Virus record (IMG/VR): IMGVR_UViG_3300044611_002466
Coordinates: 1 to 64,000 of that record
Direction: 5' to 3' (one strand)
Length of the DNA stretch: 64,000 bases
DNA from: a virus
Both the position numbers and the translations under genes were made by a program. Of this stretch, positions 7,961-33,371 are shown piece after piece (within the stretch, counting starts at the first letter, position 1; each line of letters opens with the position of its first letter). A model generated the notes under the pieces. It made no database searches, had not been told where the DNA came from, and worked only from the letters and a program-made list of their open reading frames with translations.

Positions 7961-7978
7961 ACCGCTGCACGTTAGGGG

Positions 7979-9837: not shown

Positions 9838-10431
9838 ATGTCAGAGCACCTCATGTACCTCGCCTGCTTTCGCGAGCTGGAGAAGTCCGCCGGGTTCGGT
9901 ACGCGCGCAGCCACATGGGCAGCTGGACACGCCGCGCAGGTGGGTGGTGCTGTGAAGAGCTTCGCCCACGACGTAGGCAGCTCCGCCCTGGGCACGGTGC
10001 GTCCCAGTGCCTGGAAGGCCGGGATTCAGGCCGGAAGGGCGGAGATGAAGAACGGTCCGCTGGCCGCGGGAATGACGGCGCTTGCGGTGCCTCTCACCGC
10101 GGCCGACGTCGTGCACACGATGCGGACGAAGGTGGACCCGGCGACGGGGAGGCAGCTCGGGCTTGGCGAGCGCGCTGCTGTGGCGGCCGGGCATGTGGGG
10201 TCCACGGTCGCTGGGATGCGCTACATGAACATGGCTGGGGGCGGCTTTGTCCGCGGCATCGGTGTTCAGGTAGGCGGCGGCATGATCACCGACGCGGTCA
10301 CCAGCCGGGCCGGGAGGGCAGTCGATAGCCTGGCTGCTCGAAGGTCCCCCAGTGCGGTGGGTGCTCTCGGCGGCTACGCTCACCCCGCGACCGCCGCTGG
10401 CGGGGCGCCAGTCGCCCGCGGAGTCTCATGA
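9838..10431 (+). CDS. Gly/Ala-rich protein, possible membrane-active virion protein
   Basis: 197 residues starting MSEHLMYLACFRELEKSAG, with the recurring K-x-A-G peptide at the N-terminus. The rest is rich in Gly and Ala with small-residue helices (GSTVAGMRYMNMAGGGFVRG) that could insert in membranes. It overlaps the portal start (ATGA arrangement at 10428). Similar small Gly/Ala-rich proteins recur elsewhere in the window. No function assigned. Confidence 0.68.
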   Translation: MSEHLMYLACFRELEKSAGFGTRAATWAAGHAAQVGGAVKSFAHDVGSSALGTVRPSAWKAGIQAGRAEMKNGPLAAGMTALAVPLTAADVVHTMRTKVDPATGRQLGLGERAAVAAGHVGSTVAGMRYMNMAGGGFVRGIGVQVGGGMITDAVTSRAGRAVDSLAARRSPSAVGALGGYAHPATAAGGAPVARGVS

Positions 10432-12521
10432 ACACCTCCACCGATAGTCCTCGTTCCCCTGGACGTACTACCGCCTCTTGGACGAGTCGCGGCTACGGTG
10501 TTCGGTATCCGTCGCCCTTTTTCGACGTCGCACAGCAGTTCCTCCCGGAGAACGTGCACCAGCTGCATCTCTGGTGCCGGTTCTACTTCCTGACGAACCC
10601 GGTCATCAACGTCGCCTGCCAGAAGATGGCGGAGTACCCCGTCACGCCGCTCGTGTGGGAGACCGACGACAGCGAGCTCAAGGCGCTCTACACCAACCTG
10701 GAGGCCCACCTCCGTCTCCGGCAGTTTCAGGTCGAGATCGGGCTCGACTACAACGTCTACGGGAACGCCTTCGCCAGCGTGTTCTTCCAGCTGGAGAAGT
10801 ACCTGGTGTGCAAGAACTGCAGGGAGCGGTACCGTGCGTCGAAGAACCGCAGCAGGTACACGTGGAAGAACGGGCGATTCTTCCTAACCTGTGGCCTATG
10901 CAAGACGCAGGACTACGCCGACCAAGCCGACACCTACCCGCGTAACGTACGCGGGGCCCGTCTCGTACGGTGGAACCCCGAGAACATCGAGATCAAGCAC
11001 AACGAGGTCACCGGCACCAGCCGCTACTACTACCGCCTCCCGCGCAGCGTCACGAACGACGTCCGCCTCGGGGACCCCGAGACGATCGAGACCCTCCCGC
11101 ACCAGTTCCTCGAGGCGGCGCGGACCGGCCGCGTGCTGCTGTTCCACCCCGACAACTTCTTTCACCTCAAGCGCCCGACCATCGCCCAGAAGGATCAAGG
11201 GTGGGGCTCCCCGCTGATCTTCCCGCTCCTAAAAGATGCCTTCTACCTGCAAGTCATGAAGAAGGCGCAGGAGAGCCTGCTGCTTGAGCATGTGGTGCCG
11301 CTGCGGATCGTCTTCCCTGGACCGACCACCGGAGGCAACGACGGGCCTTTCGGTGCGTACAACCTGTCCAACTGGAAGCAGAAGATCGACACCGAGCTGG
11401 CCATGTGGAAGCGGGACCACAACTACATCCCGATCATGCCGATGAACATCGGGTTCCAGCAGATCGGCGGGCAGGCCAAGGCACTCATCCTGCACCAGGA
11501 GTTCCGCATCCACGCAGAGCAGATGCTCGCGGGCGCCGGCATCCCGGTGGAGTTCGTGTACGGCGGACTCCAGTGGAGCTCCTCGAACACCTCACTGCGT
11601 GCGCTGGAGAACACGTTCCTCGGCTACAACATCGAGCGCTTCAACCTCACGCGCTTCGTTGTCGACAAGGTCGCGGCGCACATGGGCTGGAGGACCTGCC
11701 CGTTCCGCTTCGAGAAGTTCCGCATGGCGGACGACCTCCAGCGGGCCATGTTCTACCTCCAGCTCAACCAGGCAGAGAAGGTCTCGGACCAGCGCCTGCT
11801 CGAGGAGGTTGGGGAGGACTGGGAGACCGAGAGCGAGCGCATCACGGGGGAGCGCGCGAAGAAGATCGATGCGCAGCGGAGGACGCAGCTGGCGACGGCC
11901 GAGATCCAAGGAGCCGCCCTGCTCCGAACCTCCCGCTACCAAGCCAAGGCGAACGAGCTGACGATGCTCGCTCAGAACAACGCGCAGATGCAGATCCAGA
12001 GCGACCAAGCCGCCGCCGGCATGGTCGCCGCACCAGGAGCACAGCCTGCAGGTGCGGCGCCCGGCGCAGCTGCTCCGCCCGCAGCAGAGGCGCCCGCCCA
12101 GGGCGACGCGGCCGCTGCGGGGCAAGACGGTGGTGCTCCCCCGCCCGTGGACCCCAACGCGGCGCTCCCAGAGGGCGGCCCTTCCGTGTACGCGGAGAAC
12201 GCGGGAGCTCCAAACGCATCCGCCGCCCCCACGGCGATGGGTGGGCTGGAGTCGCCCCTGCGCGTGGGTCAGGGAGGGATGGACCTTCGGTACATCGCAC
12301 AGCGCGCGGTGGCCTACCTACGCACGGTGGAGAGCCAGAACGGGAAGCAGGCCATGCTTCAGGAGCTCGGCAAGCTCCAGCTGGAGAACCCACCCGTCTA
12401 CCAGCTCGCCGTGCAGCTGCTGAACAACACCGGCGCGGTGGCAGACCCCCTAAACGCGACCACATCGCCCATCACTCCGAGATCCGCCTCGCAGCGGGAT
12501 GCCAGCCGTACCATAGGATGA
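10428..12521 (+). CDS. Portal protein with zinc-ribbon insertion
   Basis: 697 residues. The order of features fits a phage portal: an N-terminal stretch after VHQLHLWCRFYF, a long central body with QIGGQAKALILHQEF and GIPVEFVYGGLQWSSSNTS, a helical stem region, and an Ala/Pro/Gln-rich disordered C-terminus. It would form the dodecameric ring through which DNA enters. Unusually, a CKNC...CGLC zinc ribbon sits at residues 127-158. It overlaps the preceding gene by 4 bases. The terminase that should dock to it is encoded 29 kb away. Confidence 0.78.
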   Translation: MNTSTDSPRSPGRTTASWTSRGYGVRYPSPFFDVAQQFLPENVHQLHLWCRFYFLTNPVINVACQKMAEYPVTPLVWETDDSELKALYTNLEAHLRLRQFQVEIGLDYNVYGNAFASVFFQLEKYLVCKNCRERYRASKNRSRYTWKNGRFFLTCGLCKTQDYADQADTYPRNVRGARLVRWNPENIEIKHNEVTGTSRYYYRLPRSVTNDVRLGDPETIETLPHQFLEAARTGRVLLFHPDNFFHLKRPTIAQKDQGWGSPLIFPLLKDAFYLQVMKKAQESLLLEHVVPLRIVFPGPTTGGNDGPFGAYNLSNWKQKIDTELAMWKRDHNYIPIMPMNIGFQQIGGQAKALILHQEFRIHAEQMLAGAGIPVEFVYGGLQWSSSNTSLRALENTFLGYNIERFNLTRFVVDKVAAHMGWRTCPFRFEKFRMADDLQRAMFYLQLNQAEKVSDQRLLEEVGEDWETESERITGERAKKIDAQRRTQLATAEIQGAALLRTSRYQAKANELTMLAQNNAQMQIQSDQAAAGMVAAPGAQPAGAAPGAAAPPAAEAPAQGDAAAAGQDGGAPPPVDPNAALPEGGPSVYAENAGAPNASAAPTAMGGLESPLRVGQGGMDLRYIAQRAVAYLRTVESQNGKQAMLQELGKLQLENPPVYQLAVQLLNNTGAVADPLNATTSPITPRSASQRDASRTIG

Positions 12522-12524
12522 CCC

Positions 12525-13373
12525 ATGTTCAAGACCGCCAGTGAGGTGTACGAGACCTACGAGCGCGCCCGTATTGCGTTCGAGAAACAGGCCTACGGGG
12601 AGGCCGAGCACGCGGAGCTGGCGGGCATGGCCTCCAGGGCAGTGGGGAAGGGCGCGCCATCTCCCGCGGTAGCTGGGACGATCCAGAAGGGCGCGCTGAA
12701 GGTCGACCAGGGGATTCGGCATCCCTGGCTGCCGCACACCGACCCCCTACACTCCTTCCCGGGCTCGCAGACCAAGGCCATGGTCGGAAGAAATGTCGTG
12801 CAGAAGCAGGACATGGCAGTCCGCGACATCTCCAAGTCCATCGCTACGCGAGGGTCTCCCCTGTCCGGCGCACGGGCACATCGGGGTCTGATGAATCTGG
12901 GCGAGGGCCACCATCAGATGATGGACATCAGCGCGCACACGGACAAGCCAGCACTGGAGGGCAAAGCCTCTCGCCTGCGCGGAGCCCTGAAGGGGCGCGA
13001 GGTTGGGTACGGTGGCGGTGTGGTCTCAGGGCGCGAGCACGGACACTCCGGGTTGACGCGCGAAGGCACGACGCTGCACGCTGACCTCGATCGTCTGCGC
13101 CCTGACTCGTCTGCTGTGGATCGCCAGGCGATTGCGCGGTCGGAGCGTTTCGGGGCGACCGTGGCTAAAAAAGTGGAGGCGCGCCTGGTCTCGCACCACG
13201 GCATGCACCCGACCGAGGCAGCCGAGCACGCCTCTCACTTCTTCCAGCAGATGCACGCCCCGAGCCGCCCCAGCCAGTTGGTCGGGGAGGCATCGAGGAC
13301 GGCACGCTACTTGGGTGGCGAGGTCTCCCGCGCCGGCTCTGCCGTACGCGGAGTACTCTCTCGCTTGCGCTGA
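12525..13373 (+). CDS. Unknown His/Ala-rich protein downstream of portal
   Basis: 282 residues beginning MFKTASEVYETYERARIAF, again carrying the K-x-A-S peptide at the very N-terminus and an EKQAYGE copy soon after. The middle is rich in His (GEGHHQMMDISAH, HHGMHPTEAAEHASH). No enzyme motif recognised. Three bases separate it from the portal gene. Probable virion component. Confidence 0.68.
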   Translation: MFKTASEVYETYERARIAFEKQAYGEAEHAELAGMASRAVGKGAPSPAVAGTIQKGALKVDQGIRHPWLPHTDPLHSFPGSQTKAMVGRNVVQKQDMAVRDISKSIATRGSPLSGARAHRGLMNLGEGHHQMMDISAHTDKPALEGKASRLRGALKGREVGYGGGVVSGREHGHSGLTREGTTLHADLDRLRPDSSAVDRQAIARSERFGATVAKKVEARLVSHHGMHPTEAAEHASHFFQQMHAPSRPSQLVGEASRTARYLGGEVSRAGSAVRGVLSRLR

Positions 13374-13444
13374 CAAACTGCGCGCGCCGTCTTGATGGGC
13401 GACGTCGTGAAGAACCATAGGAACGTCATGATGTTGTTGAGCAT
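13307..13444 (-). CDS. Small hydrophobic-start protein on the minus strand
   Basis: A 45-residue frame starting MLNNIMTFLWFFTTSPIKTA with a hydrophobic first 15 residues and a basic, disordered remainder. It has a strong AAGGAGG...GAGGTGAAC leader before ATG and a CATAAG element 16 bases upstream. Its last 67 bases run antisense to the end of the plus-strand gene ending at 13373. A tiny membrane-associated protein is plausible; reality rests on the leader and codon pattern. Confidence 0.5.
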   Translation of the reverse strand: MLNNIMTFLWFFTTSPIKTARAVCQRKRESTPRTAEPARETSPPK

Positions 13445-13459
13445 GTTCACCTCAACCTC

Positions 13460-13465
13460 CTTATG
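13460..13465 (-). promoter_or_regulatory. CATAAG element before the 45-residue gene
   Basis: Minus strand reads CGGTCATAAGGAGG, 16 bases before the ATG at 13444 and partly merged with its ribosome-binding site. If it were a classical -10, almost no leader would remain, so it may overlap the transcription start. Confidence 0.5.
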
Positions 13466-13473
13466 ACCGAAAC

Positions 13474-13494
13474 GGACCCCCTTACGAGGGGACC
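13474..13494 (-). terminator. Possible hairpin at the end of a minus-strand gene
   Basis: A CCCCT/AGGGG stem with a four-base loop, flanked by partly pairing GG/CC, overlaps the TAA stop of the gene ending at 13482. No U-tract, so a weak terminator candidate only. Confidence 0.3.
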
Positions 13495-13880
13495 GCCAGC
13501 ATCAGGACGGAGCTCGGCGTACCGCACGCGTCGCACTCCCCGTCTTTCCAGTAGGGCTGCACCTTGAACCCCCGAGTGCACGTCGAGCACACCCACACGT
13601 AGTCGGGCGCCCGGTCTTCCAGCTCGCTCAGAAGCAGCTGGCACTTTCCGCAGTCGACGTCTCCGCACATCCCCCCGCGGTTGTACCGTCCGGCTGGCAG
13701 CAGTACTCGCACGCTCCTGGTGCTGCGCTCGAGCAGCACACAGAACGCGAAGAGTCCACCCTCTCCTGGGAGCGTGGGGTCAACGCGCGGCGCCGACCGC
13801 TCCAGGGGCTCGTGCAGCCCTGTCTGGCCCCGAAGTCTTCGTAGAGGTGAGCCCTCGCGGGCTCTACGCGCGGGCACCAT
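13482..13880 (-). CDS. Small zinc-ribbon protein
   Basis: 132 residues with three Cys groups near the C-terminus: CGDVDCGKC, CSTC and CDAC, probably one or two zinc ribbons. The start at 13880 overlaps the upstream stop in a TGATG arrangement with a GAGGGG site; a shorter form beginning at the ATG at 13670 would contain only the zinc part. Could be a small DNA- or protein-binding regulator. Function unknown. Confidence 0.6.
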   Translation of the reverse strand: MVPARRAREGSPLRRLRGQTGLHEPLERSAPRVDPTLPGEGGLFAFCVLLERSTRSVRVLLPAGRYNRGGMCGDVDCGKCQLLLSELEDRAPDYVWVCSTCTRGFKVQPYWKDGECDACGTPSSVLMLAVPS

Positions 13881-13983
13881 CACCCCTCGTCCAGTGGTGG
13901 TGCATCGCCGCCCCGCATTCGACCACGAACCGTGCCGCGCCCGCCACAAAGGCGAACAGCAGCATCCACATCGTCGGACTCAT
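13864..13983 (-). CDS. Candidate overlapping small membrane protein
   Basis: A 39-residue frame starting MSPTMWMLLFAFVAGAARF, overlapping the 79-residue gene in another frame. Its codons are more GC-rich at third positions than those of the overlapping frame over the same bases, and the peptide has one clear hydrophobic span. An in-frame TAG lies directly before its ATG. Real or not is uncertain; overlapping small membrane genes are typical of phage lysis or host-takeover functions. Confidence 0.35.
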   Translation of the reverse strand: MSPTMWMLLFAFVAGAARFVVECGAAMHHHWTRGDGARA

Positions 13984-14119
13984 CTACATCCCCGTGTTGG
14001 GTCCCGGTGGGACCAGAAACAGACTGCTCGACCAGCTGCGCGAACTGACACAGCTCGGTCCCCTGACTCGGCCTCGAACGGGGCGCCCTACGACGTCCCG
14101 TGGTAGGTTTGGAGTCCAT
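13880..14119 (-). CDS. Unknown small protein
   Basis: 79 residues starting at ATG 14119 after a GGAGGTGAAC leader that is nearly identical to the leader of the 45-residue gene at 13444. The N-terminus is Arg-rich, the C-terminus Gly/Arg/Asp-rich and low in complexity. A CATAAG element lies 17 bases upstream. The second half may be shared with another reading frame. Function unknown. Confidence 0.5.
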   Translation of the reverse strand: MDSKPTTGRRRAPRSRPSQGTELCQFAQLVEQSVSGPTGTQHGDVDESDDVDAAVRLCGGRGTVRGRMRGGDAPPLDEG

Positions 14120-14135
14120 GTTCACCTCCATCCCC

Positions 14136-14141
14136 CTTATG
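14136..14141 (-). promoter_or_regulatory. CATAAG element before the 79-residue gene
   Basis: Minus strand reads CCGGCATAAGGGGG, 17 bases before ATG 14119. It also lies just upstream, in the opposite sense, of the RNA polymerase gene. Confidence 0.5.
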
Positions 14142-14145
14142 CCGG

Positions 14146-17100
14146 ATGTGGAGCTCTTCTATGCCGAATCTGAACCCGGAAGCCGCCTTCGAGAGCTTGA
14201 AGGGTCAGGTGGCCGCGACCATCAAGGCGCAGTTCCCCTTCGAGGGGGCGGTGCGTCGGCTTGAGCTTGTCGACGTCGTCTTTGAGGAAAAGTCCGGCAA
14301 CGCAGGAGACCCGCACCACATCGACAACCTCGATGAGCAGCTCAAGGCCAGAACGACCGGGATGACGTGGGGCGTGCCCGTGCGCGGACGCCTGCGGCTC
14401 GTGGACAAGGCCTCCGGACACCTCATCGAGGAGGCGTCGGTCACCTTGGCGAAGCTCCCCAAGATCACCCGCAGGTACTCCTACCTCATCGACGGGCAGG
14501 AGCGGCAGCACGACAGCGTGTTCCGGTCCAAGTCTCGTGCCTACCACCGCATCGCCTCGAACGGCGACGTCCAGGCCCGCTGGAACTTGGCACGCGGGCA
14601 CGGGTTTGACCTGACGTATGACCCCGTGAAGGGGCGCATGATCATGACGATCGGAGACTCCAACATCCCGCTCTACTCCGTGCTGCACATCCTCAACGTA
14701 GGGGATGCCTCGATGGAGCGGGCTTGGGGTCCCGAGGTGTTCCGCGACAACCAGAAGGCCGCGAAGCTCGGGGACGTGGACAAGATCTACACCGCGCTGC
14801 GGCTGCGCATGGCAGACCGCTCTTCCGGCACTCCGGCCCAGCGGGCGGAGAAGATCCGGGAGTACTTCGCGACGGAGACGGAGGTGCTGCCGGACGCGAT
14901 GAAGGCGGCCTTCGGAAGGGAGTACTCCTCGGTCAACGGAGAGAACCTGCTCCTCTCGTCCACCCGCCTCCTGGACATCCAGAAAGGGCGCTCGAAGGAA
15001 GACCCTCCGGCACATGAGCTTCCCGACGACCGACAGGCGCTGTCCGCGAAGTACCTCGCGACCACCGAGGACTTCGTGATCGAGGCCCTCAGGAGCCACG
15101 AAGCGAGCCTTCGGAAGCAGGTACAGGACCGCATCGACAAGCCGGAGTACAGCATCAGCGACATCATGTCGCCGAACTCCTACGGGCGCGTCGTTCTCGC
15201 CCCGTTTCAGCACGCACAGCGCCCGGAGCAGACCAACCCGCTGCAGTTCCTTTCGGGGTACATGCGCACGACCATCCGCGGCAAGGAGTTCGGCGGCGTC
15301 GGCGGCGAGAAGATCAACCTCGACGTCGAGAAGGAGCTGAACCCGACGCACTTGGGGTTCATCGATCCCATCCAGACGCCGGAGGGGGAGGACACGGGCA
15401 TCGCCCTCAACCTCCCCCTCGGGATCTCTGTCACACGCGCGACCGCGCGACCAGGCTCGAAGAGCAGGGGCTCTCCCGGGCAGGAGATCCGGACGAAGGT
15501 CTACGACGTCAAGGCGCGTCAGACGGTGCTGGCGACCCCGGCGGAGCTCGAGCACGCCGTCGTCGCGTACCCGGACCAAGTACGCTGGACCGGCGGCCAT
15601 CCCGCGCCGATCGCGAACGAGGTCGTCTGCTACGACGAGCAGCGCAAGACCTCGAAGCGTCCGTGGGAGAAGGTGCGGTACGTGCTTCCATCTGCGAAGG
15701 CGCTCCTCTCCTTCAGCGCGAATCTGATCCCCTTCTTGCAGAACAACAACGGCAATCGAGCCATGATGGCGGCCAAGCAACAGGAGCAGGCCCTCGCTCT
15801 GGTGCGGCGCGAGGCCCCCCTCGTCCAGGTCAAGACGGACGGGGTCAACACGTTCGAGCAGGTCGTCGGGTCCTTCGTCACGCACACAGCCCCCGCGGCC
15901 GGCGTCGTGAAGCGAGTCGAGCCGGGCGCGGTTCACCTGCAGACCGAGGAAGGCCTCGTCCGCATCCCGATGTACAACCACTTTCCCCTCAACGGAGGGA
16001 AGAACTCCCTCCACTCCATTCCGGTGGTGAAGGCGGGTCAGGCGGTCCAGAAGGGCGAGCTCCTGGCGGACTCGAACTACACCAAGGATGGCGCCCTCGC
16101 GCTCGGCTCGAACCTGCGCGTCGCGTACGTGCCGTGGAAGGGTCTGACCTTCGAGGACGGCATCGTCGTGTCCGAGAGCGCGGCGAAGCGCATGTCCTCG
16201 GACCACATGCACGCGCTGGAGGTCACGGTCTACGCCAGCATGATCGGCGCCACTGAGGGATCGTTGTCCCGCTGGCGTGACTACGCGACCCCGCAGCGGA
16301 GCACCCCGGAGCACATCAGCAATCTGGACGCACGCGGGATCGTGCGGGAGGGCGCCGTTGTGCACAGCGGCGACGTCCTCGTCGCGATTCTTAGCCCCAG
16401 GCAGTCGAGCGAGTCAGACCAAGCAGCCGGCCTCATCCACAAGACACTGGCGAGGTCGTACCGGGACTCGTCCCTCGTCTGGGACCACGACTACTCCGGG
16501 AAGGTGGTCCGGGTGCTGGTCTCCGAGGCCATGAACCGGAAGCACATCACGGTGCACGTCACCACGGAGCAGCCCCTGGTCGTAGGGGACAAGCTGTCAG
16601 GGCGTCACGGCAACAAGGGGATCATCAGCCGCATCGTGCAGGACCACGAGATGCCACACACGGCGGACGGCGTCCCCGCCGACCTGCTGCTGAACCCAGC
16701 TGGCGTGCCGAGCCGTATGAACGTCGGCCAGGTCCTCGAGACTGCGGCGTCCAAGATCGCAGAGAAGACGGGCAAGCCGTACATCGTGGAGAACTTCGTC
16801 CCCGGGGTCGACTACTCGGCGAAGGTGACGGCGGAAATGCAGAAGCACGGGCTGTCGGACACGGAGGAGATGTTCGACCCCGTGACCAAGCGGTCCATCG
16901 GCCAGATCATGGTCGGGAAGCAGTACATGCTCAAGCTCCACCACCAGGTGGAGAAGAAGGCAACCGCGCGCTCGATGGAGAGCGGGTACACGCACACCGG
17001 CGAGGCGCCGAAGGGGTCCGGCATCCCCGGCGGCGGCCAGAAGATGGACATGTTGACGACGTACGCGATGCTCGCGCACGGAGCCAACCACAACCTCCGG

Positions 17101-20100
17101 GAGGCGTACACCTTCAAGAGCGACGGCGACCAGAACGCCGCCTGGGCCGCTGTGATCACGGGCAACCCGCTGCCCCCGCCGCAGCCCACTCGCGGGATGA
17201 GCCATTTCCAGAACTACCTTCGGGCGCTCGGCGTGAATGTCGAGAAGCGGAAGGACGACTACCAGCTCTCGCCCCTGACGGACATGCACCTGCTGGGCGA
17301 CGCGAAGCGAGGCCTGCGCGGGATCTCGAACGGCGAGATCAAGCTGCCCGAGAAGCTCAGCGTGGCGCGCGGGGCGCGCACCGTCGAGGAGCACGGCGGC
17401 TTGTTCGACCCTCGCGTCACCGGCGGCCTCCAGGGCAAGTTCTGGAGCCACGTGGAGTTGGCGGAGCGCATGCCGAGCCCACTCTTCGAGCCCGCGATCC
17501 AGACGTTGACCGGCCTGACCAAGAAGCAGTTCGACGCCATGGTGGGCGAGAAGGGCCTCGTAGACGGCAAGTCCGGGTTCCACACCATCATCGAACGGCT
17601 GGGGGCCATCAACGTCGACGAGGAGTTGAAGAAGGCCCAAGCCGAGGTCGGGAAGTCCGGCCGCGCGACGCTGAACCGCGCGATGAAGAAGGTGCGGTAC
17701 CTCGAAGCCCTCAAGGCGAACGGGCTGACGCCGCTCGAGGCGTACACCAACAAGTACCTACCGGTGCTACCCCCCTCTGTTCGACGGGTGTCGGTGGGCC
17801 TCGACGGGACCCAGGTCGTGGACGACCGGAATCCGCTGTACCTGGGCGTGGGACACGCCAACGGAATCCTGAAGGAGGCGAAGCCGTCGACGCCCCACGA
17901 GGACCTCCAGAAGGCGCGGGCGTCGCTCTACAGCAGCATCCGCTCGCTGCGGATGACCGGCATGACGACCAGCCCGGGGTCCGGAAAGCCGCGGCACATG
18001 CAGGGTCTGATGGAGCTCCTGTCAGGTAAGACCGAGGATCACGGAGCCCCCAAGGAGAGCTTCTTCCAAGAGGGGGTCCTTGCCCGGCGCCAGGACCTGT
18101 CGGGTCGGTCGACGATCGTACCCGAGCCGGCGCTCGGGCTTGACCAAGTCGGCGTGCCCCGTCAGATCGCTATGGAGATGTACAAGCCCTTCGTGGTGCG
18201 CGAGCTCGTGCGCGGCGGCAAGACCCCCATCGAGGCGTTGAAGTGGGCGAAGGAGAAGAAGGATCACCCGCAGGTGATGGACGCGCTCGAGCGGGCCGTG
18301 GCGGAGCGGCCGGTCTTCCTGAAGCGGGACCCGTCTCTGCACAAGTTCTCCATCATGGCCTTCCACCCGAAGATCGTAGAAGGCAGTGCTATCAAGATCC
18401 ATCCGCTGGTAACCGGGGGATTCAACGCCGACTTTGACGGGGACTGCTACTACGGTCAGGTCCTTGTTGACACCGAAGAGGGGGTGGATTACCACGAGGG
18501 CATGCCTCACTACCTCCGCGTGCCCGGCCAGAAGGTCATCCACATCCGCGACTTCCCCCGCATCGAGAGCACGCGCGTGGAGAAGGCATCCGGCGTCGTC
18601 GAGTACGACGTCCCCGCCGGCGTACGCGTTCCCGCGTGCTTCAGGGACGGCAACAGGCCCTGCATCGAGTCGTTCGAGGTGACGAAGTTCTCCGAGCACC
18701 CGGACTGCGAAGAGTGGGTGGTGAAGACGCGTGCCGGGCGCGAACTGCTCGTCTCCGAGGACCACAGCCTCGCGCTGCTGGACCCGGAGACTCTGGAGGT
18801 GTCCAAGGCTCCCGCGCGCGAGGCCGTAGGACAGTGCCTCCCGACTATGTTCCGCAGTGATGACGGAGAGGCGGCGGTTTACGACCTGCGCGAGTACCGA
18901 GGACCCAAGAGCAATCCGCTCCTGGACGTCGTCGAGGTCGGCAGGGAGGTCGCCTGGATGCTGGGCGTACTCGTCGGAGATGGCTGGGTGACACAGAAGA
19001 CGCCCGCCGTGGCGACCGTGAGCCTCTCGTTCGGAGACGATGGCGCGGACGTCGCGGTGGCATGGGAGGCGGCGGCCAGCAGGATCGCAGACGGCGCAGT
19101 CGGCTACACAGAGCTCCCGCACGAGTTCGAGGGCAAGAACTACACGTCGCACCGGTTGACGCTGAGCAACACTGGCTTCGCCAAGTGGATCGCGCCGATG
19201 ATCGGGCACAGCGCTCGTGGAAAGCACCTGCCCGAGGGCTACCTGCACTGGAATCGAGAGTCCCGGCGCGGGCTGTTCTGCGGGCTGCTGGACACGGACG
19301 GCTCTGTGAACTGGGCCGCCAGTGGGCGATTCTCCTGCTCCTTCACGACGACGTCGCAGCGCCTCGCGGAGGAGGTGCGTCTACTCGGCCTCACGCTGGG
19401 ACTCGCGGCTACGTTCACGGAGTTCGAGAACCGAGACCAACCTGCGTACATCCTGACGTTCTCGGTCAGCCAGGTGCAAGAGGCACGGTGGCTGAAGCTC
19501 GTGTCGGCGCGCAAGCAGGCTGCGCTCAGCAAGCTGCACAACGGTACTCGTCGCGCGCGCGGGCACACGGACTTCGTCCCGCTGCCCCCGAGAGCACGCG
19601 AAGAGCTGCTCGACCTGCTGCGGCAGGTCGGTGCGACCCGACGCGCGCCGAACAAGAACAAGCCTGCCTTCTCGCTGTACGTGGTCCTGAAGCGCGGGGA
19701 ACCCACGCTGTCCCGCGAGGCGTACGAGAGCCTGTGGTCGGTCCTCGATCCGACGCTCGACTACTCGGAGTACCTCAAGCGGTGGGTTTCCGTGTGCAAC
19801 GCCCCTGTGAGCTGGGACCTCGTCGAGTCCGCTGAGTTCACCGGCAAGCGCCGCACGATGTACGACATCACGGTGCCCGGTGCATGGACGTTCGCTACGG
19901 CAGACGGCGCCATCGTCTGGGACACGATGGCCCTCTACGTCCCGGTGTCCGCCGAGGCGGTGGAGGAGGCGCACAAGATGCTCCCCTCGAAGAACCTGTT
20001 CTCGCCCACCCACTTCGGTCTTCTTCCCGTCCCCGGCCAGGACTCTCTCCTGGGCATCTTCCAGGCGACGAAGTGGGGCACCGAGGTGAAGGTGCCAGAG

Positions 20101-23067
20101 GGCACCACTGCCGAGCGCGCGATGCAGATGATGCACGATGGGAAGCTCAAGCCGACCGACGTGATCCTCATCGACGGTAAGAAGACGACGGCGGGGCGGC
20201 TGTCGCTTGCCGCGCTCCTACCCGCCGCGATGCAGGGGAATGAGAAGCTCCTGCACGACTCGGCCTTCCGCCTCAACAAGGATGGGGTCGAGAAGATGCT
20301 CTCCACGGTGGCGCGGGACCACGACAAGGGCTTCGCCACCACAGTCGACGGGTGGAAGGATCTCGGGAACCACCTGTCCTACCTGAACGGCAGCTCCTTC
20401 TCCATCAACGACTTCCACGACGGCGTCGCCATGCGCGACCGCATCCTCGCGCCCTACGCTGCGCAGGAGAAGGCGCTCCACAACACCGCCATGTCGCCGA
20501 GGAGGCGGGACCAGAAGATCGTCGAGCTCTATCAGGGTGCGCAGGCGGAGCTGAAGCGCGTGGGCAAGGCCAAGTACGACGCGGGCGGCAACCGTGTCTG
20601 GGAATGGGCGGAGTCCGGCGCACGCGGCAACTGGAACCAGTTCGCCCAGCTGACGCTGGCGCCCGTCCTCGTCGAAGACTTCGCGCGGCGCACCGTTCCC
20701 ATCCCGATCACCAAGTCCTTCGGAGAGGGCCTCTCGGTGTCCGAGTACTGGGCGTCGATGCACGGCGCCCGCAAGGGCACCCTCGACCGCGCCCAGGGGA
20801 CGCGCGAGCCTGGCGCAGTCCAGAAGGACATCGTCAACACGACCATGGGGATCCAGGTCACCGCAGAAGACTGCGGGGCCACCGAAGGCAAGAAGATGGC
20901 GGTCGGACACAACGACATCGTCGGCAGGTTCCTCGCCCATGCAGTGAAGCTCGGGACCGTCGACGTCCACGCCGGCGAGCTCATCACGCCGGCCCTGGTC
21001 TCCCAAGCCCGGAATGCTGGCGTCGCGGAACTCGTGGTGCGCTCGCCGCTCTTCTGCAGAATGGGCAAGGGGGTGTGTGCGAAGTGCTACGGGCACAACG
21101 AACGCGGCGGCCTCCACGCAGTCGGCACGAACCTGGGCGTCATCGCAGGGCAGGCGCTCAGCGAGCCCATTACCCAGCTCGCGATGAAGTGCAGCGAAGG
21201 GGTGATCACGGACGGCGCTGGCGTGACCTGGGCCTTCGAGGACTACTTCGAGGCACACGGGCTCGAGGTGCCGGCGGCCGGAGAGGTGCGCACGAAGTCC
21301 ATAGTCGCGATGCTGCGCGACGGTCCCGCGCCCGCTGTGGTTGCGACGCGTCTGCAGTCGCATCTGCCGGACGACGAGATGGTCTTCATCAAGACACGCT
21401 CCGGGCACGTGATGGCGGTCCAGAAGAACCACCCGCTCTGGGTCTACGACGCCAACGGCAATGCCTTCGTGAAGGCGGCTGGCGCCCTCGAGCCCCGTGT
21501 CGACCGCTTGCGCGTGGACCGGGTCGCGATCGAGCGGCCGACGTGCGCCATGGCCCCGCTCGACCCGTACGCGATTGGGTTCTTCCTCGCCGAGGGGAGC
21601 ACTCGCTACGGCAACGGCACCCCGCGCTACGACGGTGTTGCGGTCGCGTCGGTCTTCTCCCAGCACGAGTCGTTCCAGAAGCATGAGCTCGTCACGCGCC
21701 TCCGCGCCATCAACGGGATCGGCACGGTCTCGTCTCACGAGAAGTGCGTCGAGGTCTACGACCCGGCGTTCGCAGCGTTAATGGCCAGCGTGGTCCGCGG
21801 GCGCAGCAGCTACACGAAGCGCCTGCAGCCGGGCTTCAATCTCTGGTACGAAGAGGAGCTGGTCCGCCTGCTCGCTGGCTGGATCGACGGCGACGGGACC
21901 GTGTTTGAGTCGAGCGGGGTGACCGTCGCCAAGATCTACACGTCCAGCTTCGTCGCCCTGCAGCAGCTCGAGATCATCTGTGCCAGGCTCAGGATCCGCT
22001 GCAGTGCCGGGTACGTCAGCCGCCCCGACGAGACCGTGAAGGTGAAGAGCCGACACGCCAACTTCTTCGCGGAGCTGCGGTTCAACGAGGACTCTCGTTG
22101 GGACGTCGGCAGCTGGTCCCTGCGCATGCGCGCGAAGGGCGAGGTGAAGTTCGCGAAGCACCGCTTCATCGACCACGACCTGGATCCGGTGCGGAAGGTC
22201 CAGGTCATGCCGAAGTGGATCACCCCGGTGTGGGACGTGAAGACGTCCTCGCAGGGATTCACGTGCGGCATGCTGCGCAACCACAACACCTTTCACACGG
22301 GAGGGGTCTCGAGTGCGGGGCAGTCCAGCGCCGTGGACTCGTTCAAGCGTGTGAAGCAGCTCTTCATGGTCCCCGGCAAGCTGCCAGACAAGGCGACCAT
22401 CGCCACGGTCGGCGGTACGATCGGGAAGATCGTCACCGACGCCCGCGGTGGCCTCACCGTCGACATCGAGGGCAAGGCCCATCGCGTCATCACAGGGCAC
22501 CTCCTCGACGGCATCAAGACCGGCGCAGTGGTGCACCGCGGTGACCCGATCTCCACGGGCCCCCTCGACCCGCACGAGCTCCTGGAGCACACCAAGAGCA
22601 TCGGGCGTACGCGGAACTACATCACGGACGAGGCCACCGCGGCGTACCAGGGCACCGTCCGCCAGCGGAACGTGGAGATGGTGGTGCGCGGGATGACCAA
22701 CCTCACGGAGGTCCACAACGCTCCTCCCGGCAGCCCGTGGCACCAGGGCGACCTGGCCCCGCTCTCCGCGGTGGACGAGCACAACGCCAACGCGACAGCG
22801 GAAGGACACGAGGTCATCTCGCACACGCCTACGCTGCGCGCGATGACGCTCGTTCCCCTGTCCGGGACCGAGGACTGGATGGCGCGGCTGAACTACCAGC
22901 GCCTCAAGGACACCTACACGGAAGGTGCTGCCCAGGGCTGGAAGTCCAACATCCACGACCATCCGATCCCCGGCCTTGCCCACGGCGCCGAGTTCGGGCT
23001 ACGTCCCCCCACGGCCCGCACACCGCCGCCAGCCACCGGGCGCACGACTGCACCAGCGCGAAGGTAG
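14146..23067 (+). CDS. Fused beta/beta-prime RNA polymerase with two inteins
   Basis: 2,973 residues (ATG 14161 is an alternative start). Beta part: THLGFIDPIQTPEGE (~402), the LIPFLQNNNGNRA rifampicin-region motif, GDKLSGRHGNKG (~815) and NPAGVPSRMNVGQ (~850). Fusion point about residue 1050, before SNGEIKLPE. Beta-prime part: LSGRSTIV, LKRDPSLHKF, the catalytic Mg motif NADFDGD (1427-1433), the Zn site CRMGKGVCAKC (~2304), the trigger-loop region SEPITQLAMK and TFHTGG, and the C-terminal DWMARLNYQRL. The N-terminal beta-prime zinc ribbon is missing. Inteins at 1434-1926 and 2349-2714 split the two active-site motifs; spliced length is about 2,114. It should transcribe phage genes. No alpha or sigma partner is seen. 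Six bases separate it from the spike gene. Confidence 0.97.
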   Translation: MWSSSMPNLNPEAAFESLKGQVAATIKAQFPFEGAVRRLELVDVVFEEKSGNAGDPHHIDNLDEQLKARTTGMTWGVPVRGRLRLVDKASGHLIEEASVTLAKLPKITRRYSYLIDGQERQHDSVFRSKSRAYHRIASNGDVQARWNLARGHGFDLTYDPVKGRMIMTIGDSNIPLYSVLHILNVGDASMERAWGPEVFRDNQKAAKLGDVDKIYTALRLRMADRSSGTPAQRAEKIREYFATETEVLPDAMKAAFGREYSSVNGENLLLSSTRLLDIQKGRSKEDPPAHELPDDRQALSAKYLATTEDFVIEALRSHEASLRKQVQDRIDKPEYSISDIMSPNSYGRVVLAPFQHAQRPEQTNPLQFLSGYMRTTIRGKEFGGVGGEKINLDVEKELNPTHLGFIDPIQTPEGEDTGIALNLPLGISVTRATARPGSKSRGSPGQEIRTKVYDVKARQTVLATPAELEHAVVAYPDQVRWTGGHPAPIANEVVCYDEQRKTSKRPWEKVRYVLPSAKALLSFSANLIPFLQNNNGNRAMMAAKQQEQALALVRREAPLVQVKTDGVNTFEQVVGSFVTHTAPAAGVVKRVEPGAVHLQTEEGLVRIPMYNHFPLNGGKNSLHSIPVVKAGQAVQKGELLADSNYTKDGALALGSNLRVAYVPWKGLTFEDGIVVSESAAKRMSSDHMHALEVTVYASMIGATEGSLSRWRDYATPQRSTPEHISNLDARGIVREGAVVHSGDVLVAILSPRQSSESDQAAGLIHKTLARSYRDSSLVWDHDYSGKVVRVLVSEAMNRKHITVHVTTEQPLVVGDKLSGRHGNKGIISRIVQDHEMPHTADGVPADLLLNPAGVPSRMNVGQVLETAASKIAEKTGKPYIVENFVPGVDYSAKVTAEMQKHGLSDTEEMFDPVTKRSIGQIMVGKQYMLKLHHQVEKKATARSMESGYTHTGEAPKGSGIPGGGQKMDMLTTYAMLAHGANHNLREAYTFKSDGDQNAAWAAVITGNPLPPPQPTRGMSHFQNYLRALGVNVEKRKDDYQLSPLTDMHLLGDAKRGLRGISNGEIKLPEKLSVARGARTVEEHGGLFDPRVTGGLQGKFWSHVELAERMPSPLFEPAIQTLTGLTKKQFDAMVGEKGLVDGKSGFHTIIERLGAINVDEELKKAQAEVGKSGRATLNRAMKKVRYLEALKANGLTPLEAYTNKYLPVLPPSVRRVSVGLDGTQVVDDRNPLYLGVGHANGILKEAKPSTPHEDLQKARASLYSSIRSLRMTGMTTSPGSGKPRHMQGLMELLSGKTEDHGAPKESFFQEGVLARRQDLSGRSTIVPEPALGLDQVGVPRQIAMEMYKPFVVRELVRGGKTPIEALKWAKEKKDHPQVMDALERAVAERPVFLKRDPSLHKFSIMAFHPKIVEGSAIKIHPLVTGGFNADFDGDCYYGQVLVDTEEGVDYHEGMPHYLRVPGQKVIHIRDFPRIESTRVEKASGVVEYDVPAGVRVPACFRDGNRPCIESFEVTKFSEHPDCEEWVVKTRAGRELLVSEDHSLALLDPETLEVSKAPAREAVGQCLPTMFRSDDGEAAVYDLREYRGPKSNPLLDVVEVGREVAWMLGVLVGDGWVTQKTPAVATVSLSFGDDGADVAVAWEAAASRIADGAVGYTELPHEFEGKNYTSHRLTLSNTGFAKWIAPMIGHSARGKHLPEGYLHWNRESRRGLFCGLLDTDGSVNWAASGRFSCSFTTTSQRLAEEVRLLGLTLGLAATFTEFENRDQPAYILTFSVSQVQEARWLKLVSARKQAALSKLHNGTRRARGHTDFVPLPPRAREELLDLLRQVGATRRAPNKNKPAFSLYVVLKRGEPTLSREAYESLWSVLDPTLDYSEYLKRWVSVCNAPVSWDLVESAEFTGKRRTMYDITVPGAWTFATADGAIVWDTMALYVPVSAEAVEEAHKMLPSKNLFSPTHFGLLPVPGQDSLLGIFQATKWGTEVKVPEGTTAERAMQMMHDGKLKPTDVILIDGKKTTAGRLSLAALLPAAMQGNEKLLHDSAFRLNKDGVEKMLSTVARDHDKGFATTVDGWKDLGNHLSYLNGSSFSINDFHDGVAMRDRILAPYAAQEKALHNTAMSPRRRDQKIVELYQGAQAELKRVGKAKYDAGGNRVWEWAESGARGNWNQFAQLTLAPVLVEDFARRTVPIPITKSFGEGLSVSEYWASMHGARKGTLDRAQGTREPGAVQKDIVNTTMGIQVTAEDCGATEGKKMAVGHNDIVGRFLAHAVKLGTVDVHAGELITPALVSQARNAGVAELVVRSPLFCRMGKGVCAKCYGHNERGGLHAVGTNLGVIAGQALSEPITQLAMKCSEGVITDGAGVTWAFEDYFEAHGLEVPAAGEVRTKSIVAMLRDGPAPAVVATRLQSHLPDDEMVFIKTRSGHVMAVQKNHPLWVYDANGNAFVKAAGALEPRVDRLRVDRVAIERPTCAMAPLDPYAIGFFLAEGSTRYGNGTPRYDGVAVASVFSQHESFQKHELVTRLRAINGIGTVSSHEKCVEVYDPAFAALMASVVRGRSSYTKRLQPGFNLWYEEELVRLLAGWIDGDGTVFESSGVTVAKIYTSSFVALQQLEIICARLRIRCSAGYVSRPDETVKVKSRHANFFAELRFNEDSRWDVGSWSLRMRAKGEVKFAKHRFIDHDLDPVRKVQVMPKWITPVWDVKTSSQGFTCGMLRNHNTFHTGGVSSAGQSSAVDSFKRVKQLFMVPGKLPDKATIATVGGTIGKIVTDARGGLTVDIEGKAHRVITGHLLDGIKTGAVVHRGDPISTGPLDPHELLEHTKSIGRTRNYITDEATAAYQGTVRQRNVEMVVRGMTNLTEVHNAPPGSPWHQGDLAPLSAVDEHNANATAEGHEVISHTPTLRAMTLVPLSGTEDWMARLNYQRLKDTYTEGAAQGWKSNIHDHPIPGLAHGAEFGLRPPTARTPPPATGRTTAPARR
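18445..19923 (+). mobile_element. Intein 1 with LAGLIDADG endonuclease, in NADFDGD motif
   Basis: 493 residues inserted directly after NADFDGD of beta-prime. It starts with Cys (CYYGQVLVDTEEG) and has a block-B-type TRAGRELLVSEDHSLAL. LAGLIDADG motifs are GVLVGDGW and CGLLDTDGSV. It ends GAWTFATADGAIVWD before Thr of TMALYVPVS, where bacterial beta-prime reads QMAVHVPLS. The last two residues are Trp-Asp instead of the usual His-Asn. Boundaries are supported by extein continuity on both sides. The endonuclease should home to intein-less copies of the same polymerase gene. Confidence 0.93.
21190..22287 (+). mobile_element. Intein 2 with LAGLIDADG endonuclease, at trigger-loop site
   Basis: 366 residues inserted between SEPITQLAMK and TFHTGG, a segment continuous in bacterial beta-prime (LTMRTFHTGG). 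Starts Cys (CSEGVITDG), block B TRSGHVMAVQKNHPLWV, LAGLIDADG motifs GFFLAEGS and LLAGWIDGDGTV, and ends VWDVKTSSQGFTCGMLRNHN with canonical His-Asn before a Thr. It looks splicing-competent and endonuclease-competent. Sequence is not obviously similar to intein 1 outside family motifs, so it was probably acquired independently. Confidence 0.95.
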
Positions 23068-31091: not shown

Positions 31092-33371
31092 ATGCCCTAC
31101 CACGCCACCCTCGAGCTACTCCTGCTGAAGGACCGCACGTCGGCCGACCTCGAGACGGTGAAGGTCGCGGCTGCCCTTGGTCGGGTGCCGGATGACGAAA
31201 AGAAGTGGCCTGCCCATGTGTTTTCGGAGCTCTGCAAGGAGCTCCCCTACCTGGCGCAGTACGACATCGAGATCGTGATCGATCGCATGGATCCCGAAGC
31301 CGGGGCGGCCCTGGGCTACGCGCAGATTCAGAACAAGACGCAGAGCCGTCCCCAGGAGGCAGCGGCAGCGGCGGGAAACGTGATCCGCGTCCCGATCATC
31401 ATCAAGGAGCGGAGGCTGCAGAAGTTCTACATCTTCGAGGCCGGCGGTCAGACCTACCCGATGGGAGAGGCGCGCATCCAGCAGGCGATGCTGAACCCCC
31501 TCATCTTCGACACGGACGCCACGAGAGCTCCCTCCTCCCCGAGCCTTCTCGACCAGATCTACCCTCCCGGCCAGCAGCGCACCGGGTTCGGGCGCGTGAC
31601 GGACGCCGGGGCGATGGGCCTCACGAAGCTCAATGACGCCCCCATCGAGGCGTACCACCAGTACCACAGGGTCTTGAACGAAGCCCGCGATGTGCGCGCT
31701 GCAGCCCTCCGCGGCGGAGCTGAGCCCGCAGCGGCGCACAAGGCCCTCCTGGGGCATTTGGCCGCCCACGGGTACCACACGAACGACAAGGGGAAGGTCC
31801 GCGTCCCGACGACACCTCCGTCGGCAACCCCGGGAGCCACTCCGACCGTCGGGTCTGCCGCCCGTACCGAGCTACGCCCGCCCCAGCCCCAGGCGGCGTC
31901 AGCCACAGCGGGGGCAGCGACCCACTCTACCTGGGTGGCCCCGCACCCAGCGGGCCAGACCGGGGCCTCTACTCGCTCTACCTGGGCAGGCCCGCACCCG
32001 GCTGCTGACGCCACGGGAACGCTCACCCGGGCCACCGAGGTAGTCCCCCGCCCTCCTGTGACCGCAGCGGCCGCTGCTCACGCTGCACCTGCTGCGCAGG
32101 CCGCTGTCCACGGTGCGCAGGCCGCTGCGGCACACCAAGCCCCGGCTGCCGGACGGGCAGCGGTGAACGGGGCGGGCGGCATCATGCGTCACCTCACGGG
32201 ACGCAACGCGCTCATTGCCGCCGGGGCCACCGGCGTCGTAGCGGGTGGAGGGCTGCTCGCTCACCACCTTCTGAAGCGGCCAGCACCGGCGCCAGCTCAG
32301 AAGAGCGCCGACGCGCCCATCCCGCTCTCGGCGGCGGCCGCTGGACTGCTGGGCGGCTACTATCCCGGCAAAGCATTGGCCGGGCACACCGCTGCGGGCA
32401 TCGCCCCGCATGGGTACAAGACCCGTGCTGACGACATTGCCCGCAAAGCTGCGATCGTCGCGGGACCGGCTGCCGGCATCCTGGCACTCGTCGCCGCGCG
32501 GAAGTACGGATTGACCAGGCGCCTGCAAGGCATGCACATGGACCACTTCCCCGCCGGACTCGTCGGAAACTCGGCGGAGGAGCGCGCCCTTCTGGGGTTC
32601 GCAGCTCCGACGCTCGCCGGCGGCCTTGGTACTGTTGCAGGCGGTGTTGCCACCGGGGCAGGCATCGGGGGTGTTGCGCGCGTGAAAGACATGTTGACGC
32701 GTCGTGCGGCAGAGAAGCAGGCGGAGCACACCCCAGCTCCGGACCCCGGCGTTGTGGCGTCGTCGCTGCAGCCCGTCCTGGCAGCGCTTCTTGCACTCCA
32801 TCAGTTCTACTTCTTCGCCCACTGGACCAGCCAGGGTGAGGGGTTCTACGGAGACCACCAGCTGTTCACGCGGCTGTACGAAGGTGCGCAGGAGGACTTC
32901 GACAGCGTCGCCGAGCGCCTCGTCGGACACGGTGGCAACCAGGCGCTGGACCCGGCGGCCATCTTCACCCAGGCCTCTGCGATGAGCGCGCAGTGGATCG
33001 GAGAGGGCGCCAGCATCCCCTCAGCCGCGCTCGTAGCGGAGCAGGCAGTGCAAGAGGCGTTGACGAACGCCTACGGCACGATGGACCAGAGCGGAGGCCT
33101 CTCGCTCGGCATCGACGACCTCCTCATGTCCCTGGCCAGCAGACACGAGGGCAACCAGTACCTGCTGAAGCAACGGGACCCCAGTGGTGGCGCCGTCGCG
33201 GCTCCGCCTCAGCAGCTCGAAGTTCCGGACGCGCCGGCTCCGCCCACGCAGGAGCCTGCTGCCGTAGCGGCCCCGCAAGAAGCACCGCCGGCAGCCCCCG
33301 CACCCGCCCAGCCCGGCGCACCAATCAAGACCGCCAGCCTCCGCTCCTTCTTCGCGAGGATCTCCGAATGA
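31092..33371 (+). CDS. Large multi-domain virion-type protein with Gly/Ala membrane-like core
   Basis: 759 residues. An N-terminal folded domain of about 200 residues is followed by a low-complexity Pro/Ala/His linker containing two copies of STW(V/A)(A/G)PHPA. Next come several Gly/Ala-rich hydrophobic stretches (ALIAAGATGVVAGGGLLAHH; LAGGLGTVAGGVATGAGI) and a helical C-terminal domain. Carries the recurring QKSAD, EKQAE and IKTAS peptides. The architecture suggests an internal virion protein or tape-measure-like membrane-interacting protein, but no family is recognised. Overlaps the next gene by ATGA. Confidence 0.65.
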   Translation: MPYHATLELLLLKDRTSADLETVKVAAALGRVPDDEKKWPAHVFSELCKELPYLAQYDIEIVIDRMDPEAGAALGYAQIQNKTQSRPQEAAAAAGNVIRVPIIIKERRLQKFYIFEAGGQTYPMGEARIQQAMLNPLIFDTDATRAPSSPSLLDQIYPPGQQRTGFGRVTDAGAMGLTKLNDAPIEAYHQYHRVLNEARDVRAAALRGGAEPAAAHKALLGHLAAHGYHTNDKGKVRVPTTPPSATPGATPTVGSAARTELRPPQPQAASATAGAATHSTWVAPHPAGQTGASTRSTWAGPHPAADATGTLTRATEVVPRPPVTAAAAAHAAPAAQAAVHGAQAAAAHQAPAAGRAAVNGAGGIMRHLTGRNALIAAGATGVVAGGGLLAHHLLKRPAPAPAQKSADAPIPLSAAAAGLLGGYYPGKALAGHTAAGIAPHGYKTRADDIARKAAIVAGPAAGILALVAARKYGLTRRLQGMHMDHFPAGLVGNSAEERALLGFAAPTLAGGLGTVAGGVATGAGIGGVARVKDMLTRRAAEKQAEHTPAPDPGVVASSLQPVLAALLALHQFYFFAHWTSQGEGFYGDHQLFTRLYEGAQEDFDSVAERLVGHGGNQALDPAAIFTQASAMSAQWIGEGASIPSAALVAEQAVQEALTNAYGTMDQSGGLSLGIDDLLMSLASRHEGNQYLLKQRDPSGGAVAAPPQQLEVPDAPAPPTQEPAAVAAPQEAPPAAPAPAQPGAPIKTASLRSFFARISE

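Follow-up and report, generated by a model that had tools for sequence, protein, structure and literature searches.

The window analysed here is a stretch of 64,000 nucleotides, positions 1 to 64,000 of the IMG/VR virus record IMGVR_UViG_3300044611_002466 (188,230 bases). Its forward strand carries a tailed-phage RNA polymerase open reading frame (ORF) at 14146-23067, listed as 2973 codons without stop or frameshift. Pfam places Rpb2_3 and Rpb2_6 (beta), Rpb1_2 and Rpb1_5 (beta') and LAGLIDADG_3 on this one chain. Both domain sets, the NADFDGD motif and the trigger loop are present, and the predicted product is a bacterial-type multisubunit RNA polymerase with beta and beta' fused in a single chain. 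Translation probably starts at ATG 14161 rather than at ATG 14146, since GGAG lies 7 nt upstream of the former and relatives align from MPNLNPE. Families for sigma-70 region 2 and the alpha subunit were sought across the 188-kb record and none was found.

The portal protein gene (10428-12521, forward strand) lies two genes upstream of the polymerase gene and was recognized by 30% identity over 460 aa to the portal annotated in Salmonella phage Arash, whose portal and polymerase genes are likewise near each other. The order portal, one small gene, RNA polymerase is common to Arash (L010, 3941-10491), Vibrio phage D69 (L011, 1847-10965) and the window (10428-23067), which are distant phages; the polymerase may be part of the virion set. 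In Vibrio phage D181 (L009, 7914-13428) the gene for the N-terminal part of the polymerase is interrupted within beta, and a separate homing endonuclease gene lies in the gap; its close relative D69 differs. Two further proteins of the window were noted: a 759-aa structural-region protein (31092-33371), which towards its C-terminal end has a ferritin/Dps-like domain (Pfam E 3e-7; phrog_3636 E 2.5e-11), and a 1495-aa protein (59017-63504) whose tail sheath match is confined to the last ~170 residues.

The polymerase ORF resolves into three exteins and two inteins, all on the forward strand; in what follows a slash within a motif marks an intein boundary or the corresponding empty site, and L and G numbers are our own labels. 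The N-extein (14161-18444; PDB, Pfam and intein-free relatives) comprises beta and the N-terminal part of beta' and ends at the catalytic NADFDGD. Intein 1 (18445-19923; 493 aa, residues 1434-1926) is followed by a middle extein (19924-21189), a part of beta' that opens with TMALYVPV and reaches the beginning of the trigger loop, ITQLAMK. Intein 2 (21190-22287; 366 aa, residues 2349-2714) is followed by the C-extein (22288-23064), from the trigger-loop TFHTGG to the C terminus of beta'; the middle and C-terminal exteins are defined by PDB alignment and relatives. A preliminary description of this DNA had given a spliced product of 2114 residues, which is right when counted from the first ATG (14146); with the likely start at 14161 the precursor has 2968 residues and the spliced product 2109.

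Alignment to cellular beta and beta' chains of the PDB is broken at D1433/T1927 and K2348/T2715; on both sides of each break bacterial beta' continues without a seam. In enterobacterial RpoC numbering, intein 1 is inserted directly after D464 (NADFDGD, 458-464) and intein 2 directly before the trigger-loop TFH, at R933/T934 (M932-R933-T934-F935-H936). All seven close IMG/VR relatives (L002-L008) encode the polymerase without inserts, and their empty sites are seamless. In the closest of them, L004 (90% identical overall), the empty sites read NADFDGD/TMALYVPVSAEAVEEAHK and ITQLAMK/TFHTGGVSSAGQ, and longer reads across them NADFDGDTMALYVPVSAEAVEEAHK and ITQLAMKTFHTGGVSSAGQ; these match the joined exteins of the window exactly, which fixes all four intein boundaries. 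The preliminary description had proposed two inteins with these boundaries, and the alignment breaks, the intein-free relatives and the intein motifs bear it out. It had also named the interrupted segments as the catalytic NADFDGD and the trigger loop, as PDB alignment and RpoC numbering confirm, and had held that the flanks rejoin into intact bacterial-type motifs, as they do in L004; the comparison that it proposed, with intein-less relatives, finds the same polymerase and the same motifs uninterrupted in L002-L008. Other phages carry, at the same codons, inserts that are homologous to those of the window over the full length (E 7e-35 with intein 1 and 2e-36 with intein 2), and the window's inserts are therefore not due to chance. 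In one intein-free relative (L005/L076, IMGVR_UViG_3300020193_000004) the polymerase ORF is split into 1078 and 1294 aa at residue 1038/1039, apparently by a frameshift or an assembly error.

Both inteins have the features of class 1. Position 1 is Cys (Cys or Ser in all alleles), block B has its His (VSEDH and QKNH) and block F its Asp (MYD and VWD), and the C-terminal Asn, for which Gln or Asp is allowed, precedes a Cys, Ser or Thr (VWD/T and NHN/T). Asp at position 4 of block F, together with Cys1, assigns both to class 1 and not to class 3, which is marked by a Trp-Cys-Thr triplet with an internal block F Cys. Block F/G reads MYDITVPGAWTFATADGAIVWD/T in intein 1, with a Trp-Asp end in place of His-Asn, and VWDVKTSSQGFTCGMLRNHN/T in intein 2. 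The penultimate His, usual but not obligatory, is present in intein 2 and is Trp in intein 1. The usual block-B Thr is missing from both inteins, and this, with the missing penultimate His and terminal Asn of intein 1, makes the predicted splicing efficiency uncertain. According to a review, the class-1 route is open to inteins that end in Asp (PMC4031507), and the penultimate His is often absent from phage inteins (PMC5050341).

Two LAGLIDADG homing endonuclease motifs, each with its acidic residue, are found in both inteins (LGVLVGDG and CGLLDTDG in intein 1, IGFFLAEG and AGWIDGDG in intein 2). The Pfam model LAGLIDADG_3, with a cut-off of 22.5 bits, scores 38 bits in intein 1 and 21.6 bits, just below the cut-off, in intein 2. 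Pfam Intein_splicing matches intein 1 below its curated cut-off (E 8e-5) and reports no match for intein 2, which is therefore identified by its homology to other trigger-loop inteins; the same model matches the trigger-loop intein loci L021 (E 2e-5) and L024 (E 4e-4). AlphaFold2 models built from 3- and 4-row alignments had pLDDT of 32 and 39 and were unusable for want of alignment depth. A PDB sequence search with both inteins found no intein, and viral contigs searched with each intein alone gave no close relatives. The phage collection gave weak endonuclease-level matches only; among these the phiTE helicase and 949 TerL inteins end in HN, not Asp.

The catalytic-loop position (site 1) was scanned with the DNA pattern NADFDGD plus Cys, later widened to allow Ser. 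Allelic inteins were found in L013, L092, L096, L098, L099/L103, L100 and L108. L024, found through its trigger-loop intein, also has one, and L081 has a site-1 intein of a different type, ending THN/T. Nine of the ten distinct complete site-1 inteins, the window's included, end in Asp (eight of nine without the window): VWD in the window, L096, L099, L100 and L108, VYD in L092 and L098, VQD in L013 and VND in L024. This count leaves aside L020, L087, L090, L101, L105 and L107, in which an insert starts at the same codon and ends beyond the available sequence or frame. The +1 Thr or Cys nucleophile and the block residues needed for joining are conserved among the Asp-terminal alleles. By their sequences these are an allelic family, with Trp or Tyr mostly replacing the penultimate His; Asp-terminal inteins are atypical. 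Intein 1 is 42% identical to the site-1 intein of L108, and the flanking polymerase is likewise only 42% identical; the immediate donor of intein 1 is thus not in hand. LAGLIDADG motifs are unrecognizable in the site-1 inteins of L024, L096, L099 and L100, an expected late stage of the intein life cycle.

Several other matches to the site-1 scans were rejected. Of the three NADFDGD-plus-Cys matches in genome contigs only L020 is a polymerase, L018 and L019 being unrelated proteins; in L012, L089, L093-L095, L097 and L104 the polymerase has no intein, and the Cys or Ser behind the catalytic motif is its own natural residue. Search patterns derived from a first extein alignment were poor and recovered known loci only. 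In L081 (ORF at 7971, around residue 1371) the motif before the intein is NADFNGD, the middle catalytic Asp being replaced by Asn, which would mean either an inactive copy or a wrong base.

For the trigger loop (site 2) the pattern was HN/TFH(T/S)GG, which found inteins in L021, L023/L025 and L024. Trigger-loop inteins occur in four phage lineages besides the window's: G001, G003, G004/G006 and G005. G005 (L024) has a 3060-aa single polymerase chain with three inteins, in beta (GDKL/), at site 1 and in the trigger loop. G001 (L013) has its polymerase in several ORFs and also three inteins, one in beta, one at site 1 and an unrelated one in the trigger loop, ending CSN/T. G004/G006 combine a beta intein at TPE/ with a trigger-loop intein, and G003 has a trigger-loop intein only. 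Inteins thus occupy both active-site loops in three lineages (window, G001 and G005). The preliminary description had called two inteins in one phage polymerase chain unusual, which stands in part: G001 and G005 have both sites filled and a third intein in beta. The candidate G002 C33 proved to be an ordinary bacterial rpoC. The G003 phage (L052, L053; 193 kb) carries two different multisubunit polymerase sets, with the trigger-loop intein in one only.

The pattern scans for both sites selected for inteins and are unfit for estimating prevalence. A survey of 26 wider relatives used query search patterns in beta and hence has no bias towards beta' inteins; 24 of the 26 have no intein-sized insert, L081 has one at site 1 and L067 one at the beta TPE site. 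Ranked by ten-residue conservation along the chain, site 1 is at the 95th percentile and site 2 at the 97th. Inteins are known to favour highly conserved sites, where only precise removal works (PMC2814812).

The extein tree joins the window to L072, which is the L004 contig, as a pair with support 100/99 within an intein-free clade, and it forces at least three changes of state at site 1, the window's among them. The intein-bearing rows were picked for their inteins, so how they group in the rest of the tree carries little information. Given its position beside intein-free L004/L072, the window evidently acquired intein 1 recently, after the split from its 90%-identical relative. For intein 2 the distribution implies a gain after that divergence as well. 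Intein 2 is 23% identical to the trigger-loop intein of G004, versus 53% for the flanking polymerase, and 28% identical to that of G003, versus 24% for the polymerase. From these identities, the two trigger-loop inteins of the window's clade would have been gained separately or horizontally. Third-position identity to L004 is 0.95 over the 20 codons just downstream of site 1, versus 0.70 overall, and is not raised at site 2; the rise at site 1 is a weak hint of co-conversion, with no clear tract. The distribution of the inteins fits selfish homing into highly conserved sites.

The best explanation overall, and very probably the right one, is that two homing inteins invaded the fused beta-beta' gene and splice out after translation, the enzyme being inactive until then. 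The single-chain polymerase gene would have received two independent inteins of class 1, each with a LAGLIDADG endonuclease domain. After translation both would excise, by attack of Cys1, transfer to Thr+1 and finally cyclization of the C-terminal Asp (intein 1) or Asn (intein 2). Joining of the flanks would give an ordinary polymerase chain of ~2109 residues, most likely soon after translation. During co-infection the endonuclease would cut the matching conserved site of an intein-free relative, and repair would copy the intein in. By this route the inteins would persist and spread; the sites are nearly impossible to mutate or to delete imprecisely. The sequences themselves show the insert boundaries, the empty sites, the intein and endonuclease motifs, the recurrence at both sites and the recent gain; splicing, DNA cleavage and homing are inferred.

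That the unspliced enzyme is dead, as the preliminary description expected, can safely be presumed from the location of the inserts in catalytic loops. The preliminary description went further and suggested that splicing may delay the activity or be a control point. On such a reading slow or conditional splicing of one or both inteins would switch the polymerase on late or under a given condition, and this timing would be selected. Inserts in both catalytic loops do mean that splicing must gate activity, and two other phages are occupied at both sites. Intein 1 and its alleles have an unusual terminal pair, mostly aromatic-Asp; unusual penultimate residues in phage inteins can alter the splicing rate (PMC5050341), and conditional splicing has been reported for DnaB inteins (PMC6195587). 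The site-1 inteins of L024, L096, L099 and L100 are still in frame despite having no recognizable LAGLIDADG motif, but retention without an endonuclease is expected of any intein where only exact deletion is tolerated. A regulatory intein should be maintained in relatives that need the regulation, whereas none of the seven close relatives has either intein; these, and 24 of the 26 wider ones, must control the same enzyme without them. Each intein also looks like a recent gain, and keeps its paired LAGLIDADG motifs. A selected control point thus has no comparative support and looks quite improbable.

Cleavage in place of splicing would leave the mature polymerase in separate pieces, if the Asp-terminal intein 1 mainly cleaves. 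Phage polymerases are commonly split, with beta and beta' among several genes; that of G001 is in several ORFs, and the chains of Arash and D69 break ~85 residues past the catalytic motif. Asp-terminal inteins are also, as noted, atypical. The natural breaks of the relatives, however, lie outside the motif and never inside NADFDGD/T, Asp-terminal alleles conserve the +1 nucleophile and the block residues for joining, and class-1 splicing is possible for such inteins (PMC4031507); we consider this outcome very doubtful. Still less credence, almost none, is due to an assembly artefact or a pseudogene, that is, chimeric inserts or a decaying gene. The record is an unisolated metagenomic assembly and the polymerase ORF of its relative L005 is broken, but the window's 2973 codons run without stop or frameshift, the inserts are in frame, with the GC content of the gene (66%) and with intein motifs, and independent assemblies have the exact codon placement in common. 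Homing inteins that splice after translation thus remain the preferred reading.

The oldest precedent that we found is in Archaea, where the catalytic large subunit contains inteins, as it does here: Mja rPol A', Mja rPol A'' and Nph rPol A'' (PMC1635734), and halobacterial rpolA (PMC1635734, PMC4071816). The NCBIfam model NF011491 (intein-containing A'') aligns to RpoC until M932, whereas the intein-free TIGR02389 continues through TFHIGG, which puts the archaeal A'' intein at the window's trigger-loop site or at most one residue from it. Those genes belong to cells and encode A' and A'' apart, whereas the phage gene of the window joins beta and beta' in one chain. In Bodo saltans virus both large polymerase genes, polr2a and polr2b, contain inteins, with no active endonuclease (PMC5871332), and eukaryotic RPA2, RPB2 and RPC2 inteins lie at conserved positions near the active site (PMC1635734). 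These too are in large subunits, but of eukaryotic-type enzymes, and the RPA2, RPB2 and RPC2 inteins are in the second-largest subunit rather than in the catalytic Mg loop or trigger loop as in the window. In Zeta crAss-like phages the polymerase genes are disrupted, including within the DxDxD motif (PMC7886860). Those disruptions are described as stop codons or frameshifts in very divergent crAss-type polymerases, whereas the window has defined inteins at NADFDGD/T and, after Lys or Arg, before TFH in a bacterial-type chain. The Asp-terminal class-1 inteins of Amitai et al. (2004), as cited in PMC4031507, share the terminal Asp with the site-1 family; the site-1 inteins differ in being a whole allelic family at one site of phage RNA polymerases. 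In the open-access literature we found no paper on inteins at the catalytic or trigger loop of a phage beta-beta' chain, or on an Asp-terminal family there.

Inteins can break or inflate the annotation of phage polymerases. The site-1 Asp-ended family is a ready system for studying splicing without a His-Asn pair, and the intein-bearing alleles and their 90%-identical intein-free counterparts are a natural set for tests of homing, co-conversion and transcription timing. It is conceivable, though unlikely, that the site-1 inteins are an old distinct family whose conserved Asp end, mostly aromatic-Asp, uses an altered, slower C-terminal step suited to a place behind the catalytic Asp, and that in phages with a trigger-loop intein as well the two independent splicing events act as a timing gate; if so, maturation of the polymerase would time phage transcription. 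What the comparison of sequences describes is recurrent invasion of the active site of the polymerase, not a proven on/off switch: in phage polymerases of the bacterial type, inteins land repeatedly in the two most critical loops, in some cases in both together and with a third in beta.
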